From assembly GCA_030527765.1 (NCBI GenBank), contig JAUNAE010000145.1, positions 1-8,975 of the forward strand: a DNA stretch of 8,975 bases, in the 5' to 3' direction. Shown here in pieces: positions 1,925-8,975 of this stretch. Position numbers and translations under genes: made by a program. The notes below the pieces were generated by a model that saw nothing but the letters and a program-made list of their open reading frames with translations, had not been told where the DNA came from and searched no databases. Positions within the stretch are counted from its first letter, which is position 1, and every line of letters starts with the position of its first letter. Source of the stretch: Eubacteriales bacterium. GTDB taxonomy: Bacteria > Bacillota_A > Clostridia > Lachnospirales > Lachnospiraceae.

Positions 1925-2591
1925 GGCTTTCTTCTCCATAAAGTTTGCTTTCCAAGTATTTTGTAACCTCTTTCTTTTGTAATACTGGCAAACAGATATC
2001 TTTTAATGAACACGCATTACATGACTTTTTTCTTTTTGCCTTTGGTGTATATCCACGTGCGTAATACTGATGCATTTCGTACGCGAGCGCTCTTACATCT
2101 TCTCTTATCTGATCAGTAATCAGTACTTTTGTCCGCCTTTTTGTGCTTCCGTAAAACAGATAACCTACTGGGATTTCACAGCATAGCATCTCTTCCAGGC
2201 ACATTGCCTGAGCTGCCAACTGCAGCACATCCGCTTCTGTTTCTTTAGGCTGACCTCTTTTATATTCAATGGGAAGCGGTGTATACCTTCCTTTCTCTCC
2301 AAAAATTGAAACTCCATTCTGATCATCTCGATGAAATTCCACAACATCACATTCTCCCGTTATTCCCAGTGTGGGGGATGACACCGCCATCCCCCTTACA
2401 ATTATCAGATCGCCGCGTTTTTCACGCATTTCCCTATCGTGGGCACGCTTATGCATGATATCACCATCAACGGTTCTATCGTTTTCCACCCACTGCTGTT
2501 CAATATGAATGAGGGCCCACTGCCTTCTACAAAAAGAAAAATGCTGTATCCCGGAAAGCATCAAATATTCATCTTCTTCATATCTTTTCAT
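1908..2591 (-). CDS. cas4: CRISPR-associated exonuclease Cas4
   Basis: A 227-residue RecB-family nuclease with an iron-sulfur cluster. The four cluster cysteines are C21 (FSFCRRQW) and C191, C194 and C200 (CNACSLKDIC). Nuclease motifs are visible: H47 (motif I), D82 in ITGECD (motif II), E109 and K111 in PIEYKRG (motif III), then a Q-rich helix LQLAAQAMCLEEM from about 123. Cas4 trims prespacer 3' overhangs at the PAM end and works with Cas1-Cas2, so that inserted spacers have a usable PAM and the right orientation. The start codon overlaps the cas7 stop as ATGA (2588-2591), a strong sign of coupled translation. All key residues are present, so it should be active. Confidence 0.97.
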   Translation of the reverse strand: MKRYEEDEYLMLSGIQHFSFCRRQWALIHIEQQWVENDRTVDGDIMHKRAHDREMREKRGDLIIVRGMAVSSPTLGITGECDVVEFHRDDQNGVSIFGEKGRYTPLPIEYKRGQPKETEADVLQLAAQAMCLEEMLCCEIPVGYLFYGSTKRRTKVLITDQIREDVRALAYEMHQYYARGYTPKAKRKKSCNACSLKDICLPVLQKKEVTKYLESKLYGEESHEEIT

Positions 2592-3445
2592 ACAAAATCA
2601 TATATCTCCGGCTTTATCCCTATATCTTCCAACTCGATATTATAGTCATCAACTGACATCGGTTTCTTCAGCGGATCCTTTTCAACGATCTTCACAGAAC
2701 GATGAATTTTTGCTGTTGAAACAGCGGGTGTCTTACTGTCGTGTTTCCACCAGTACAATCTGCACATTTCCATACTGCCTTCCGGACGTGCTGACGAACT
2801 GTCGTTTTCAAATAATGTCTTTAATGCTTCTTTGATTTTTTCAGCATCTTCATCTGAAAAACCCGTCTTTTCTGCAAGCTGGCAATTGATACTTCCTTTA
2901 ATCTTATATAGCCCAAATGCTACACGGTGTTTCATTCCCATAGTATCAGATGCCTTTGCATTCTTACCTGACTCTCCGTTTACACTCTTCGTGATCTGCA
3001 TACTCACAATATCTACAGTTGATGCACTGACAGCCTGGTGAATGGATACCGGGCCTCTTACACCTACGGATACATTTTCACCCTTAAATGCAAATACCTG
3101 TCCAAAACTTCTGACATCTATCCATTCTTCACAGGCGGCTTTAGCGTACACATCCCGATCTGCATTCTTTCCAGCCCCTGCTTTTTTCAATGCTTCACAG
3201 GCCGCCGCTCTGCTTCTCAGGCTGTCGCATCCATCATCGCATCGATCATCAGACTGAACAAAAATCTTTTCTCCCATATCCTGAAGTCGATTTCTGATCT
3301 TTCGTTTAATACAGACATCTGACATCTCTCCATAACCGTCGGAATTAATCCTCGGGCGATTTCCATCCAGCGGATCACCGTTCGGATTGGCATCTGTTGC
3401 TGTTACAATAGCGACAAAATCAATTTTATTCTGCAATACTCCCAT
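2588..3445 (-). CDS. cas7: Cascade backbone subunit Cas7 (Csd2, type I-C)
   Basis: A 285-residue RAMP protein of the Csd2 family, which polymerises along the crRNA guide to form the Cascade backbone. Hallmarks in order: NPNGDPLDGNRPR (20-32), GEMSDVCIKRKIRN (39-52), DVRSFGQVF (110-118), GVRGPVSIHQAVS (128-140), and TMGMKHRVAFGLY (168-180). Length matches the family. The start at 3445 is fixed by GGAGGAGG (3455-3462) 9 nt upstream; that ribosome site lies within the last codons of cas8c, leaving one untranslated base between the two genes. Being preceded by its own strong site fits the need for several Cas7 copies per complex. Confidence 0.97.
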   Translation of the reverse strand: MGVLQNKIDFVAIVTATDANPNGDPLDGNRPRINSDGYGEMSDVCIKRKIRNRLQDMGEKIFVQSDDRCDDGCDSLRSRAAACEALKKAGAGKNADRDVYAKAACEEWIDVRSFGQVFAFKGENVSVGVRGPVSIHQAVSASTVDIVSMQITKSVNGESGKNAKASDTMGMKHRVAFGLYKIKGSINCQLAEKTGFSDEDAEKIKEALKTLFENDSSSARPEGSMEMCRLYWWKHDSKTPAVSTAKIHRSVKIVEKDPLKKPMSVDDYNIELEDIGIKPEIYDFV

Positions 3446-3446
3446 G

Positions 3447-3827
3447 TTACTCTTCCTCCTCCGCTTTATTCTCTATCTGCTTTGTATATAATTTTTTCTT
3501 CATGCAATAAAATGCCAACAGAAATTCCGGTTGAAGCTTTGTATTATTTTTATAATCATCCAAACTAAACTGTGTCATCACATCTTCTATCATCTTATGA
3601 CAATACCGCTGCTTTTTGACCGACATCTTATTCAGATAGGGGACAATCCTGCTATACAATGTTTGCCATGTCTGATATGGGCGATTACTAAATGCCTCAA
3701 AGGATTTCATAGCGTTTGTTGTCCGCGCATTTATCTCCTCATAGGATGTCTCCTCGATAAAGTCAGCAATTGCCAGGAGCATACCATACAGATTATCCCG
3801 GGTTGGTTCCTTCCATCCCTCCGTCAT
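3447..3827 (-). CDS. cas11c: Embedded small subunit Cas11c, translated from inside cas8c
   Basis: An in-frame internal start at ATG 3827 within cas8c is preceded by a perfect AAAGGAGG (3836-3843) exactly 8 nt away. This is a better ribosome site than most of the annotated starts in the operon. The product is 126 residues, [15 protein letters not shown] onwards, identical to Cas8c residues 498-623, and looks largely helical. Published work on I-C and related systems showed that the small Cascade subunit Cas11 is made this way and is needed for stable target binding. That knowledge plus the visible ribosome site make this a confident call, although expression has not been shown here. It would line the Cascade belly, holding the displaced DNA strand. 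Confidence 0.88.
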   Translation of the reverse strand: MTEGWKEPTRDNLYGMLLAIADFIEETSYEEINARTTNAMKSFEAFSNRPYQTWQTLYSRIVPYLNKMSVKKQRYCHKMIEDVMTQFSLDDYKNNTKLQPEFLLAFYCMKKKLYTKQIENKAEEEE

Positions 3828-5318
3828 TATATATTCCTCCTTTAACATTGAATTGTTTTCCAGTTTTTTGCGTTTGATTAGACCACAGACGCATTCCAGT
3901 GACTTCTTCCAATTTATGTTTTTTTCATAGGCAACTGGATTTTCTACTTTATGCTGCATTGCTCTCAAAATATCCTGTGGGATTTTTCTCCCCTGGACAA
4001 CACATGGGATCAGGCGGCAAATCGTTTCTCCTCTCAACTCATCCTTTGCCTGTATATTCCCTCCCTGCTCTGTGCCAAATGCAAAATCCACAATCTCATA
4101 GAGCGAAAAAGTAGAAATTTCTCGCTGTTTAGTCTTTGGATTAAAGCGATACCAGGAAATAGAGGTGTGCCAACGCTCAATGTTTTTCAAGAATTCAGAA
4201 GTATTCAGCTCTGTGTATATTGAAATGGCTAGTCTGCCGGTGGTTGCTGCATCTACTCCTAATATCATTGTTTTTGACTGTATATCAATGGTGGACAATT
4301 TCCCCCAAATTTGCTTCTGCAGACGATTTCTGAAAACTGCCATCGGCTTGTCCTCCGGTTCCATGTCTTCAAAATCGTTAAACTCGTCATCCTTATCCTC
4401 TTCCTGAAGTTCAATAATTGCAGGCAGTCTCTGAAGATTACTTTCCCATGCTACAATTGCCAAAGTACCTACATGGATGCCATCTTCAGCCAGCAACCAT
4501 TTCAAGGCGTTATGTGCCATTTGGGAATATTCATAGCTTACGGAAAGTGCCTGTGTTTTGTCCTGAAATCTTCCTCTATAGGTAAAGCCGCTTTCATCAT
4601 TGGTGGAAATCAGTTTTGCCTTATCACCTGCATTTCTGATCTTGGATGGATGCTTATAAGTAACAGGAAGTATTTCTCCGCTGGCATAGCACAGCTGACT
4701 ATTTCCCATGACTGATTTACTGAACTGCAGATAGGCCTGATATAACGTTACATCCTCCCAGGTTTTGGTTTCACGTGTTATATCTTTGTAGGAAATGCGA
4801 AATCTGATAAAAGAATCCTTCTGATCAATGCCGTTGATTTTTTCATCATCTGAAATCATACCACTGGTATTATCCAAAATTAGAGTTCCTGCATTAATCA
4901 GGTCGCGCATAACACATCCTTTTGCAAGATATTTGTATATCGCTTCCACAGCCATATGATGGTATTCAGAATTCTTCCATGATAACAGCTGCTCCATATA
5001 GGCCTTATAGTATTCGCTGTTATCGTTTTTCTTTTCGGAAACATATTTACTGTAATCACCAGCAATATAAAAAAGTTTATCATTTAATGGATGCGGAAAT
5101 ATACCCGCACTTCTGGCACCAGAGTCTTCAGTTACCGGGATGATTGTCACACTCCTTTTTTTATCTGTTATTCTGGTAGCGCTGACAAATTCTCCGTCTT
5201 CTTTGATCATTATTTCGATCTGAGCATTTGCTGTGGAATGACTAATCGGGAGCAGCGTGTTTTTTTCGTTACTTTCTATCTTTTGATAGGCCAAGTACAA
5301 TTCATTAATCCAACTCAA
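3447..5318 (-). CDS. cas8c: Cascade large subunit Cas8c (Csd1)
   Basis: A 623-residue Csd1 protein, the I-C large subunit that reads the PAM and opens the target DNA. Recognisable pieces are the N-terminus [24 protein letters not shown] (223-236) followed by FTYRGRF (245-251), an acidic low-complexity stretch (about 306-323), [16 protein letters not shown] (353-368), and an alpha-helical C-terminal domain that is also made separately as Cas11c. No ATG gives a sensible N-terminus: the frame opens at 5375, deep inside cas5c. I chose TTG at 5318 because GGGAGGT lies 8 nt upstream (5326-5332) and the protein then starts (M)SWINELY as in relatives. This overlaps the cas5c end by 14 nt. The N-terminus is less certain than the gene. 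Confidence 0.93.
3836..3843 (-). promoter_or_regulatory. Internal ribosome binding site for Cas11c
   Basis: AAAGGAGG on the minus strand, inside the cas8c codons for KEE (M-L-K-E-E-Y), followed by the spacer AATATATA and ATG. Match length and spacing are close to ideal, and the AT-only spacer should keep the start unstructured. Confidence 0.85.
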
Positions 5319-6048
5319 ACGGAGCACCTCCCTCAAATTCAGACAATCCGCTAAAGTTATTGAGAGCTTCACCAAACTGCTTTTCCTTCATGCGTCTAAT
5401 ATGACGTGTTGCTGTGCATTCTTCTGGTCGGATAAATTGTATAATTCCATCCCGCATGACTGGGTTCCATAAACGGACCGTCAGCATTCCCTGATCCTCA
5501 TCACGGACTGCTTCATCTGCATAAGTAATTCCATGGTAAGTTAAGCCATACATGATTTCTCCGGTTTGATCATATGCCCCTTCTCCGGAACCAAATTCGC
5601 ATGGTTCTACATATCCCTGACATTCTCTCGTCCCCAGAAAAATATCTCTCCTGCCGCCTCTCTCAATCATTCGTTTGGCAATATTATGATGTTTATGCTC
5701 ATTTCGATCCTGTGCAAGCTCAGACCTGTTTTCATTCCATTCAAAATGCGCTCGTACCTGGTAACACACATCTTTTAAATATGTGTAGTACGATAAATCA
5801 TTTCCCCCGCCATATTTTATTGGCCGAATTCCTTTTCTTTCTGTGCTGATTGGATGCATTATTCTGACAGAATCAATAATCCATATAAATGTTGGTTTCC
5901 AGTACACACTGCTGATGATCCCTTTTAACGCTTCATAAGTCGGCACAGGATAAGAAAATTTTTCACCTCCCGGCCTTGTTAAAATATCTGAAAACAGTGC
6001 ATAATCCCCGCTGACCATAAACTCCACTGTATTTCTATAAACACTCAT
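5305..6048 (-). CDS. cas5c: Cas5c, pre-crRNA endoribonuclease and Cascade subunit (type I-C)
   Basis: A 247-residue Cas5 of the I-C type (Cas5d/Cas5c). Type I-C lacks Cas6, and none is present here, so Cas5c cuts each repeat at the 3' base of the stem and stays on the 11-nt 5' handle. The Bacillus halodurans enzyme uses Y46, K116 and H117; this protein has Y49 (SVYW), K119 and H120 (EHKHHN) at the same spacing, so it should be catalytic. Other family features are [12 protein letters not shown] (10-21), [11 protein letters not shown] (33-43) and [13 protein letters not shown] (137-149). The start at 6048 is preceded by a GAGGGGG tract 12 nt upstream, which is long spacing but has no better alternative. 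cas3 ends 20 nt upstream; cas8c begins inside the last codons. Confidence 0.97.
5326..5332 (-). promoter_or_regulatory. Ribosome binding site deciding the TTG start of cas8c
   Basis: GGGAGGT on the minus strand, encoded within the EGG codons near the C-terminus of cas5c, lies 8 nt before TTG 5318. No ATG is available nearby in the cas8c frame; the first in-frame upstream ATG (5375) has no comparable site. Confidence 0.75.
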
Positions 6049-6068: not shown

Positions 6069-8450
6069 CTACATCATGAGTAATTCCATCGAATTGGTTT
6101 TAGGAATACTTATTCCCACTTTTTCATCATAAAAATTCTCAGATAATGCCAGTGTTCCACATGGAAGTTTTAGTAATCCATTCTCTTTTTCCAGTTTGAC
6201 TATCAGGTTGGGATAAACACTTATGGTATACTTCTGTGCTTCCCTCAGCAGTTTGCCTTCCTGATACAAGCTGATATCTCCATTTAATGCTAAAATTATT
6301 TCCTTGCCCCTGTTACCATACGGCACAATTACATCAACTGTCCCGTTATCAATCATTTGAAATTTTTCACCTGCTGATTTAAAAGCCTGATGTCTCACAT
6401 CTGGATCACGCGAAGACTGTGAACACCTACTTTCATTTACTGACAGCAATTGCAGCAAGGTTGTGCTTCTCCCCGCATCTGTGGCGGGATAATCCAATTC
6501 TTTCTGACGATCCCTGTACAGTTTGTAAAAATAATCTGACATAACAGCGACATCGAGATAATCATCATAGTTTCCGCTGCTGATCATTTCCTGTGATATT
6601 GCCTGTGCTGCAGTAATATCATAAAGACTACCTGGATTTTCATCTTTCAGCTTCAGGAAATAGACGTCTCTTATACCTGGAAATTCGCCATTTCGATTAC
6701 ACCTGCCTGCTGCCTGTGCGGCGTTATCCAGTCCGGCTAACGCTCTCACAACACACGGGAAGCTTATATCCACACCCGCTTCTATCAGTTGAGTCGTGAC
6801 GCAAATGACTTTTTTATTTTCATTTAGCAATTGTTTGATGTCTTTCAACACATCTCGTCGATGTTCTGCACACATTCCTGTGGAGAGATGTCTGACATAG
6901 GTATCTGTCCCCACTTGATCGTTCAAAATTTGGTACATTGCTAACACTGTTGCCTTTGTATTGGCAATGAATAAAGTACTTCCCTGTTTTTCCAGACATT
7001 CCAGGCAAAATGCGGCAGCTTCTTCTGTTGTATATCCAGTAGAACAATCCAACGGCACTAAGCGGTTTCTCTGAAAATTGATAAAATCCACTGCATAATC
7101 ACCTGTCATACTCGGATCTTTATCCAGGAGCAGTGCATACGGATTATTTTCAAACCCCGGTTGCGTTGCAGAGCATAACACTATCGTTGTCCCTGCTATA
7201 TGTGACATAAAATTCATGGCAAGATTAAATATGGACACACATTTCACTGGAATAGACTGAACCTCATCAATAAGAATAACCGCGTTGCACAGCCTATGCA
7301 TTCTCCTCACGGAAGTCATCCTGCCATCAAAAAAAATATTCATAAAAGAGACCATCGTCGTGGCAATAACCGGATCAGTATACGACTGACTCACCAGTTC
7401 ATAATGGGCCAGCTCCTGTTCAGCCTGACCTCCGGCGTGATTTAGTATTTGGGGGATCATGTCTGAGTGATGTTCCAGGTAACTTTCATTGGGAAAAAGA
7501 GCTTTATATACTCCACTATTCTGTTCCAAAATACTCAAATACGGAGCGCAATATAATATTCTATCTTTGCTGTGTTTTCTACAGTACTCTATAGCAAATC
7601 TCATTCCGGAATATGTTTTTCCACCCCCAGTTGGAACAACTAGTTTACACACCCCCACTTCATGTGCCGCATAGGCTGCACAACGGTCAGAGATATCCAT
7701 TCTAAGGACGGATATTCGATCAGTCTTTTTGCGAAACTGCTCACACTGCTCTTCCATCTTTTCCGATGCTGCTTTCCAAAATGATGGTTCAACTTTCTGC
7801 TCGATTTCATCGTCTAACTCAAAATTAATCGTATCTGTGCGATCAGCGTCAACCAGCATAGAAAGGATCAATCGTTCATACATCCCCATATAAAAGGCAA
7901 ACGTACTTCGTTTTATCTTTGGAGTAAGGTTAGCTGCAAGTCTTTTACAGCGATCCTTGATTTGGTAATATTCTTCTTTTGCGGCGTACAGTAATTGAAG
8001 TACTTCTTCCTCTGAAATAACAGTCGCAACATTCGCTTTAATTTCAGCAAAGCGCTCATCCTTTTGTATTCTGCGTATAAACGTATCCTTGCCCAGATCA
8101 TCCAGCCAATCTGTCAATCCATGGTGTGTCATGATACAGTGACCTATAAATACCGCTGTTTCAATCAGCTCCCCGCCACCATGTTCTTTTGCCAATACAT
8201 AGAGATATTTCCCGCCAGCATAACTATGGTCAATTTCTCCTCGTTTTATATTGCTGTCTCCGGAAATATACATTGTGAAATCATCATTCAGCTTACCGAT
8301 ATCATGGAGTAATCCCATCAATTCACATAATTTCTGGCACCCGATCGATTTTCCAAACTCTGATGCCCGCGCGGCAACACCTTCACAATGTACCTTCACA
8401 CTCTGTATAGCATTATCTGTACTTCTGATATGAGCGATGAAATTCTTCAT
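6069..8450 (-). CDS. cas3: CRISPR-associated helicase-nuclease Cas3 (HD domain fused)
   Basis: A 793-residue Cas3 with an N-terminal HD nuclease and a superfamily 2 helicase. HD ligands: H21, H49-D50 (GLLHDIGK), H109/H110 (MTHHG) and D201 (LVDADRTD). Helicase: Walker A PTGGGKT (273-279), DEVQ box (395-398), SAT (427-429), motif [14 protein letters not shown] (from 552) and motif [12 protein letters not shown] (579-588). It is recruited after Cascade forms a full R-loop, nicks the displaced strand, then unwinds and degrades the target. No motif is missing. ATG 8450 has a GAGGGGGGAG ribosome site just upstream (from about 8455). It is the first gene of the operon, so the promoter ahead of it controls the whole system, including the putative guide-RNA target. 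Confidence 0.97.
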
Positions 8451-8474
8451 GATGCTCCCCCCTCTATAAGGATG

Positions 8475-8503
8475 AGATTACTCCTCTTATATCAGATAGT
8501 CAA
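8475..8503 (-). promoter_or_regulatory. Predicted cas operon promoter
   Basis: On the minus strand, TTGACT (8498-8503), a 17-bp spacer, and TAATCT (8475-8480) put the start near 8468, about 17 nt before the cas3 ATG. The -35 box is good and the -10 box moderate. An alternative -10 is TATAAG (8486-8491), whose -35 would lie around 8509-8514, inside the guide-RNA target. Either way the core promoter abuts or overlaps the protospacer at 8505-8525. Confidence 0.6.
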
Positions 8504-8504
8504 A

Positions 8505-8525
8505 TACTTATTACATTCAATTGAA
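8505..8525 (-). promoter_or_regulatory. Putative target (PAM + 18-bp protospacer) of the crRNA-like RNA
   Basis: Read on the minus strand from 8525: PAM TTC (8523-8525), then AATTGAATGTAATAAGTA (8505-8522). The guide of the plus-strand small RNA reads AATTGCAGGTATTAAGTA (8626-8643). They agree at 15 of 18 positions; the mismatches are 6, 8 and 12. TTC is the established I-C PAM. The seed (1-5 and 7) is fully paired, and positions 6 and 12 are flipped out in type I Cascade, so only position 8 is a real mismatch. The match stops after 18, too short for the full R-loop thought to be needed for Cas3 recruitment. Repression without cutting is the inferred outcome. Confidence 0.82.
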
Positions 8526-8559
8526 TTTCTATTTTAATTTACATTTATTATTGCTATAT

Positions 8560-8588
8560 TTGACTAGCCTCTCATGATAAGATACTAT
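8560..8588 (+). promoter_or_regulatory. Promoter of the crRNA-like small RNA
   Basis: TTGACT (8560-8565) and TACTAT (8583-8588) are separated by exactly 17 bp. A start 7 bases after the -10 box falls on G8595, the first base of the repeat-like element. The AT-rich stretch 8526-8559 upstream could act as an UP element. It is divergent from the cas operon promoter. Confidence 0.82.
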
Positions 8589-8594
8589 TACGTT

Positions 8595-8625
8595 GTCTGC
8601 CGGTATACCGGTAGTGGATTGAAAT
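8595..8625 (+). repeat. Solitary degenerate CRISPR repeat (psi-repeat) with compensatory stem
   Basis: A 31-nt element sharing GTCT at its start and AGTGGATTGAAAT at its end with the 33-nt array repeats (compared in crRNA orientation). The middle differs completely, GCCGGTATACCGGT against a CCTCCC/GGGAGG stem, yet still folds: C8597-G8603 pairs with C8608-G8614 (7 bp, one G-U) around a UAUA loop. The stem ends at G8614, directly before the 11-nt handle (8615-8625), as in the array. Pairing kept while sequence changed indicates selection on the RNA structure. Confidence 0.92.
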
Positions 8626-8644
8626 AATTGCAGGTATTAAGTAG

Positions 8645-8697
8645 AAATAGCCTTCTCGACTTTCAGCTATTGCATGTCGTTAAGGCTATTTTTATTT
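8645..8697 (+). terminator. Intrinsic terminator of the crRNA-like RNA
   Basis: AAATAGCCTT (8645-8654) pairs perfectly with AAGGCTATTT (8682-8691). CGAC (8657-8660) and GTCG (8676-8679) extend the stem beyond a 2x2 internal loop. The run TTTTTATTT (8689-8697) overlaps and follows the 3' arm. The stem starts just one base after the 18-nt region matching the cas promoter. Confidence 0.88.
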
Positions 8698-8842
8698 AGG
8701 ATTTTCAGATAGTATTATTTCGCCCATTGCTCTACCCAAAGCAATCGATGATCAGGGGATTGTCATTCCAATGATACTATGTGCAAATACTAACAATGAG
8801 AAAAATAGCAAGTATCACATCTATCTAAAGCCACAGTGTTAA
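8684..8842 (+). pseudogene. Possible degraded ORF fragment, unrecognised
   Basis: A plus-strand frame is open from 8684 to a TAA at 8840-8842, about 52 codons without a convincing start codon or ribosome site at its 5' end. The later part (8705 on) reads like ordinary protein, for example ALPKAIDDQGIVIPM and NSKYHIYLKPQC at the C-terminus. An internal ATG (P-M-I-L) would leave only a short peptide. It may be the tail of a gene truncated when this locus was rearranged, or chance. I do not recognise a family. Confidence 0.25.
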
Positions 8843-8865
8843 GCTGTACGGTTAAAAATCTCGTA

Positions 8866-8918
8866 AAACAATAAAATACCTCGGTCAGATTTTCATGTCT
8901 GATCGAGGTATTTATTGT
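8866..8918. terminator. Strong bidirectional intrinsic terminator
   Basis: AATACCTCGGTCAGA (8875-8889) pairs with TCTGATCGAGGTATT (8898-8912) over 15 positions, with one G-U on the plus strand and an 8-nt loop. It is flanked by an A-rich tract (8866-8876) on the left and TTTATTGTTT (8911-8920) on the right, so it works in both directions. It directly follows the stop codon of the minus-strand gene at the right edge, which is its likely main client, and it separates that gene from the CRISPR locus. Confidence 0.9.
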
Positions 8919-8975
8919 TTATCTCACCCTGATCACGGCACCTGCCAGTGCTTCCAGGGTCACATCGCAGCCCAC
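8919..8975 (-). CDS. C-terminal end of an unidentified gene (partial, runs off the right edge)
   Basis: The minus-strand frame entering at 8975 reads 18 codons (VGCDVTLEALAGAVIRVR) and stops at TAA 8919-8921, immediately before a strong terminator. Higher GC, protein-like composition and the terminator right after the stop support a genuine gene end. Too little is present to name a family. It is separated from cas3 by the small RNA and two terminators, so it is a flanking host gene and not part of the CRISPR operon. Confidence 0.6.
   Translation of the reverse strand: MGCDVTLEALAGAVIRVR

Follow-up and report, generated by a model that had tools for sequence, protein, structure and literature searches.

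The locus analysed here raises the question of why a solitary CRISPR repeat stands beside the cas3 gene of a type I-C operon, followed by a short sequence that resembles a site next to the predicted promoter of that operon. Our answer is that the region 8560-8698 is very probably a CreR-type cas-regulating RNA gene, composed of a degenerate repeat, a guide and a predicted terminator, whose product would steer its own Cascade to the predicted promoter of cas3, thereby repressing the cas operon. This answer is read from sequence: a handle, a match, a PAM, a sharp boundary between handle and guide, and recurrence with the 5+1 register in 54 other type I-C loci carrying matching pairs are seen directly.

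Organization of the locus

The window, by which we mean the whole stretch of 8,975 nucleotides that was analysed, carries a type I-C operon on the minus strand, in which family profile matches give the order cas3-cas5c-cas8c-cas7-cas4-cas1c-cas2. The cas3 gene (6069-8450; TIGR01587 and TIGR01596, over cut-off) is followed by cas5c (5305-6048; TIGR01876, 233 bits), a cas8c reading frame (3447-5375; TIGR01863, 330 bits), cas7 (2588-3445; TIGR02589), cas4 (1908-2591; TIGR00372), cas1c (893-1939; TIGR03640) and cas2 (598-966; TIGR01573). The cas8c frame was taken from a TTG, and the real start of the gene probably lies within it. A CRISPR array, also on the minus strand, occupies 22-389 at the left end of the window, with the operon to its right, and contains five identical copies of a 32-base repeat, with starts at 91, 157, 224, 291 and 358; a further, variant copy lies near 22. 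Terminal array repeats are often variant; this outermost one (22-53) deviates near the handle, with TTTCACTCC in place of TTTCAATCC.

No open reading frame of at least 50 amino acids was found in 8452-8975, the region beyond cas3. A family of direct repeats was also not found in 8000-8975, so this end of the window does not hold a canonical CRISPR array, that is, at least two evenly spaced repeats. The terminator scan reported, at 8874-8913, a terminator-like hairpin of 17 pairs that has a T-rich tail.

A repeat, a guide and a predicted terminator opposite cas3

A crRNA-like gene, repeat plus guide (8597-8643), adjoins the cas operon as CreRs do, and is divergent to cas3, lying on the plus strand whereas cas3 is on the minus strand. 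Its predicted promoter (8560-8588; TTGACT-17-TACTAT) has 9 of the 12 consensus bases. The promoter is weak as sole evidence, because the shuffled region is equally rich in such sites (2 found, shuffle mean 2.3). The solo degenerate type I-C repeat (8597-8625) forms a 7 bp hairpin, in which 8597-8603 pairs with 8608-8614, and ends in a 3' handle at 8614-8625. The handle, GTGGATTGAAAT, is identical to the last 12 bases of the repeat in the locus's own array, whereas the stem sequence differs from that of the array. Directly 3' of the handle starts the guide, AATTGCAGGTATTAAGTA (8626-8643). The position of a second repeat is occupied by a predicted terminator hairpin with a T-rich tail (8645-8698), whose arms were located; the terminator scan, which limits loops to 3-8, omits it. 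The fold of 8594-8700 has a z-score of -5.23, and none of 200 shuffles was equally stable. An Rfam search gave four matches, every one below the curated score.

The guide matches a site beside the predicted cas3 promoter

The preliminary description had claimed that the guide matches a site beside a TTC at 15 of 18 positions, with mismatches at positions 6, 8 and 12, and this proved exact in both bases and coordinates. The target site, AATTGAATGTAATAAGTA, is read on the minus strand from 8522 down to 8505, and the TTC, read from the bases, lies at 8523-8525 on the same strand. Both have counterparts in type I-C, for which TTC and TTT have been reported as PAMs: in the available parts of the literature, TTC is given for a P. 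aeruginosa I-C system and TTC/TTT for that of N. lactamica. A full-length protospacer of 34 nt at the target would extend to 8489. The additional mismatch at position 8 falls within the seed region and counts against the reading as a CreR.

Such a match had been estimated to be rare by chance. When 8451-8593 was dinucleotide-shuffled 50,000 times, the best match beside a TTC was never above 13 of 18. The guide itself aside, no site in the window other than the target has three or fewer mismatches to the guide, and 200 shuffles gave a mean of 0.03 such sites.

The predicted cas3 promoter (8475-8503, minus strand) consists of TTGACT (8503-8498), a spacer of 17 nt and TAATCT (8480-8475), and agrees with the consensus at 8 of 12 bases. 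The TTGACT adjoins the target and starts 19 nt past guide position 1, the geometry of 11 of 18 same-strand targets described below. A -35 box had been placed at 8498-8503, and the -35-like hexamer does stand there; its -10 partner TAATCT is weak, and a stricter scan omits the promoter. The assignment of a cas3 promoter is therefore predictive, with some help from the analogy to related loci. The guide is thus partly complementary, beside a PAM, to a predicted though weak cas promoter, as is expected of a CreR.

Matching pairs recur in type I-C loci

Among the 120 proteins listed of 1762, the Cas3 closest to that of the window is 50% identical, which ruled out a comparison at strain level. Genus searches yielded no closer relative of value beyond loci already in the sample, to which their new loci L248 and L250-L254 do not belong, and viral Cas3 relatives reached 33% at best, over short stretches only. 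The sample consisted of two sets. The first comprised the best 80 of 338 loci by Cas3 profile, 80 regions around cas5c matches and the window (161 in all); the cas3 start was placeable in 156 of them, and at least 200 bp lay upstream of it in 152. The second comprised 59 loci, of which two had no placeable cas3 start, leaving 57; the genome draws behind it had also supplied part of the first set. In total, 213 type I-C loci were compared, the window included; L293 was omitted as a duplicate of L238.

An early scan of the region from -1000 to +60 of cas3 in 152 loci found a handle with at most two mismatches 94 times. With 15 positions scored (1-18 without 6, 12 and 18) and any PAM allowed, 25 guides reached at least 13 of 15, as did 5 of 1124 pairs swapped between loci; at least 14 of 15 was reached by 18 guides and by none of the 1124 swapped pairs. 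Both counts of guides include the same two dispersed repeats of L019, and the matches upstream of cas3 in that locus were rejected as guides for being such repeats. A loose any-PAM search was swamped by arrays and repeats and was left out of the counts.

The rule was then frozen as follows: a solo handle with at most one mismatch, and within 800 bp a partner that has a TTC, TTT or CTC PAM and matches the guide at 13 or more of the 14 positions 1-5, 7-11 and 13-16. Applied locus-wide, it found a target for 43 of the 114 solo handles that the first set contains, against 0 of 904 swapped-locus pairs, and for 12 of 37 in the second, against 0 of 291. For solo handles near cas3 (-1000 to +60) the figures were 19 of 28 and 5 of 6, respectively. 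Thus 151 solo handles gave 55 elements in 55 of the 213 loci, one in each, with 54 distinct guides, L049 and L050 having one guide in common. By the same rule 158 of the 213 loci have no element, and 96 of the 151 solo handles have no target. A good handle is required, as the first set shows: with 0, 1, 2, 3 and 4 handle mismatches, target matches were found for 10/35, 9/15, 2/44, 0/444 and 0/2337 handles, and with five mismatches for 4 of 9095 (rows L016, L019 and L230), against 4 of 27,101 when swapped.

The elements resemble that of the window in form. Forty-six of the 55 are oriented against cas3, as is the window's. None of 54 has a second handle (at most two mismatches) 20-115 nt after the guide start, so they are not two-repeat mini-arrays. 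A terminator-like hairpin lies within 120 nt in 19 of 24 loci, against 117 of 360 random stretches. These 24 loci were obtained from 31 rows of the early scan by removing L019 (3 rows), L058, L178, L226 and a second, weaker row of L232, and they serve the tests of boundary, promoter geometry, terminators and guide sharing. They do not coincide fully with the 55 elements, which were selected by a rule that demands a better handle and covers the whole locus; L175, L180, L181, L232 and L234 are in the 24-locus set only.

The degenerate stem and the single repeat might suggest that the element is left over from an old array, a repeat with a spacer of phage origin that matches the promoter by coincidence. 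The 96 solo handles without a target may be such leftovers, and the 18 bases of the guide are found exactly in two viral contigs. However, both contigs carry one and the same stretch, in which the flank is ACC rather than TTC and only 2 of 16 further positions match, and the top matches among phage records have E values of at least 2. Coincidence is also opposed by the shuffles described above and by the behaviour of true array spacers, none of which (0 of 2458) reached 13 of 14 against its own promoter region, two reaching 12. We therefore regard an origin as an array leftover as very improbable.

Where the targets lie

Of the 55 targets, 24 are upstream of the cas3 start (one of them at it) and 31 are in the gap after cas3. 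Fifteen of the upstream targets lie within about 200 bp of cas3. The other nine, at 249-1488 bp, may serve other genes; in L070, L075 and L304 the matched site is 377-1488 bp before cas3. The 24-locus set includes 18 same-strand targets, and in 11 of them, where 4.5 were expected, the distance from guide position 1 to the start of a -35 hexamer is 14-24 nt. When only promoters with at least 9 of 12 consensus bases were counted, which excludes the window, the same geometry was seen in 10 against an expected 1.9. The protospacer overlaps a 9-of-12 promoter in 16 of the 24 loci (10.5 expected), and the window is not among them.

Relative to the start of cas3, the elements in the gap after it (L051, L052, L069, L015, L017, L022 and others) lie at about +2.2 to +2.9 kb. 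Here the protospacer covers the -10 of a promoter with at least 9 of 12 consensus bases in 23 of 31 cases, against 11.6 expected, and the best nearby promoter is a perfect 12 of 12 in 15 of 31. Elements of this group often lie over a near-perfect predicted promoter ahead of the Cascade genes. In several of these loci cas5 begins directly past the target; in five (L016, L200, L198, L263 and L256) it starts about 1-2 kb beyond, and in four it was unplaced.

These positions bear on the idea that the RNA is an antitoxin of the CreA type, which represses a small toxin gene and not the cas operon. CreA antitoxins use the same kind of promoter matching, according to the available part of one review (PMC12737573), and small reading frames do lie between target and cas3 in L167, L221 and L224. 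In the window, on the other hand, no reading frame of at least 50 amino acids is present on the cas strand between the target and cas3, and 31 relatives have their targets after cas3, 23 of them over a predicted -10. An antitoxin role is very unlikely for this element, although a mini-ORF or an RNA toxin could be present, and repression of the cas operon by the RNA is the reading that we follow.

The frame in L167 (-368 to -92) encodes a DUF3892 protein (PF13031), and a similar-looking one was noticed by eye in L232 at -599 to -263. Those in L224 (-594 to -312) and L221 (-688 to -430) have no Pfam match; such frames may be cargo that the same guide controls, in the manner of the toxins of CreTA/CrePA.

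Guides and targets covary in the Cascade register

The pairing pattern was examined in 52 guides that were selected only for matching at all ten of positions 1-5 and 7-11, with any PAM. The PAM, although not imposed, was TTC in 45, TTT in 5, CTC in 1 and ACC in 1. In the columns unused in selection, positions 13, 14, 15 and 16 match in 45, 46, 44 and 43 of the 52, respectively, and positions 6, 12, 17 and 18 in 15, 24, 35 and 14, with background beginning at position 18. Positions 1-5, 7-11 and 13-16 thus match almost throughout, position 6 seldom, and positions 12 and 17 in part; the pattern is that of the Cascade register, ending near position 17, halfway along a spacer. In Class 1 complexes each sixth guide base is flipped out, as the accessible part of a review describes. 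The preliminary description had assigned mismatches 6 and 12 of the window to these flipped bases, and the assignment agrees with the low matching at both positions across the whole set of relatives.

At the other end the match stops at the handle. Positions -1, -2 and -3 agree between guide and target sides in 4, 0 and 0 of 24 loci, and positions -4 to -12 in 0-11 of 24. The guides themselves have a mean of only 5.7 of 17 bases in common in the 24 loci. Guides and their own targets agree at 13.67 of 14 positions on average, against 5.94 for cross pairs; 13 of 14 was reached by 4 of 2862 cross pairs, all of them inside the after-cas3 group (4 of 870).

Independent drift of guide and target in relatives had been named beforehand as the outcome that would speak against the proposal, and the opposite was seen: of 21 changes that affect paired positions of a guide, 17 keep pairing. 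In three related pairs of loci, with Cas3 70-81% identical, the changes keeping pairing in both loci were 5/6, 5/6 and 7/9; a fourth related pair, L182/L189 (56% Cas3 identity), was left out of the scoring. For the window guide, 5 of 5 changes keep pairing relative to L077 and 6 of 7 relative to L002, the window Cas3 being 48% identical to both. The occurrence in 55 of 213 loci, together with the compensatory changes, indicates that selection keeps the match in relatives, as it would for a CreR.

The two like sequences lie in one AT-rich divergent intergenic region about 100 bp apart, as would paired operators bound by one protein regulator at both divergent promoters. Such operators would not explain why the match begins exactly at the end of the handle, why positions 6 and 12 match poorly or why the PAM stands on the target side only, and 54 distinct guides do not fit a single operator. 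This explanation is extremely unlikely.

Relation to known systems

According to the available excerpts of reviews, CreRs are reported in types I-B, I-E and V-A (PMC13131331) or, more generally, in 'Type I and Type V-A' (PMC12737573), and the cas genes that they repress are released by crRNA competition and by anti-CRISPRs (PMC13131331, PMC12737573). The present element is like them in being a crRNA-like RNA beside the cas genes, in its partial complementarity to a cas promoter and in the feedback expected of it (PMC13131331, PMC12737573, PMC12948488; excerpts). It differs in belonging to subtype I-C, which is absent from the I-B, I-E and V-A list in the part of PMC13131331 available, and in having a single repeat and a predicted terminator where the excerpts speak of a mini-CRISPR; its regulatory role is predicted.

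The kind of element, CreR, is thus already known, and the comparative support obtained here is unusually strong. As far as the literature examined goes, what is new relative to the reviews is the subtype I-C, the single repeat and the covariation record. Among the literature matches listed there was no paper on a type I-C CreR, and an earlier listing of I-C elements is possible. Shmakov et al. reportedly described in 2023 (NAR) repeats that stand alone close to cas genes, with spacers that match cas promoters in part, and may have listed type I-C cases. Their mini-arrays are said to have two repeats, whereas a second handle follows none of the 54 guides inspected here.

CreTA/CrePA likewise guide Cascade by a partial promoter match, but they repress a toxin gene, whereas the target here precedes cas3 (PMC12737573, available part). 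In the self-repression of SpyCas9, an effector turns down its own expression, an effect that anti-CRISPRs relieve; that effector is a type II Cas9, whereas a type I effector and a repeat-derived guide are at issue here (PMC13131331, available part). Racrs, in the accessible portion of PMC10651486, are solitary repeats without an array, one type I-C case included, which are carried by phages or mobile elements and act by repeat mimicry, with no promoter-matching guide described there. The present element lies directly beside a type I-C operon, and a search of a plasmid collection found no DNA resembling it, so carriage by a mobile element does not apply. That it is a decoy of this sort, sequestering Cas proteins with an irrelevant guide, is exceedingly improbable, for despite the single repeat, the terminator and the lack of a second repeat, it sits next to its own operon within the cas locus, with a guide that fits the promoter in the Cascade register, whereas decoys need no target.

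Proposed mechanism and implications

If 8560-8698 encodes a cas-regulating RNA, the RNA would be transcribed and then trimmed at the handle by Cas5c; in subtype I-C, crRNA processing is attributed to Cas5 in the available part of PMC10651486. The trimmed RNA would be loaded into Cascade and carried to the cas3 promoter, where the complex at the target may block RNA polymerase at the -35 box. With pairing limited to the first 16-18 or so of some 34 positions, the complex would bind but not call in Cas3, which would thus leave the chromosome intact. The damping of the operon would scale with the amount of free Cascade, and when competing crRNAs or anti-CRISPR proteins leave less of it free, the operon would be released, a step carried over from CreRs of other subtypes.

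For type I-C as a whole, it is likely that widespread single-repeat, terminator-ended self-guides hold their own Cascade genes in check, at a site either ahead of cas3 or in the gap that follows it. These guides appear free to evolve except for their fit to the promoter, so that covariation would record the 5+1 register and the stop near position 17, which would let Cascade bind without cutting its own chromosome. If this is true, RNA-guided self-regulation of cas genes extends to subtype I-C, and anti-CRISPR proteins are predicted to induce these type I-C operons. A handle with at most one mismatch and a PAM-flanked partner within 800 bp also provide a rule for finding such elements. Furthermore, the 55 natural guide-target pairs offer material for learning what extent of pairing leads to binding but not to cleavage. 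Among them, the two flipped positions differ in how free they are, position 12 matching in 25 of 54 pairs and position 6 in 14 of 54.
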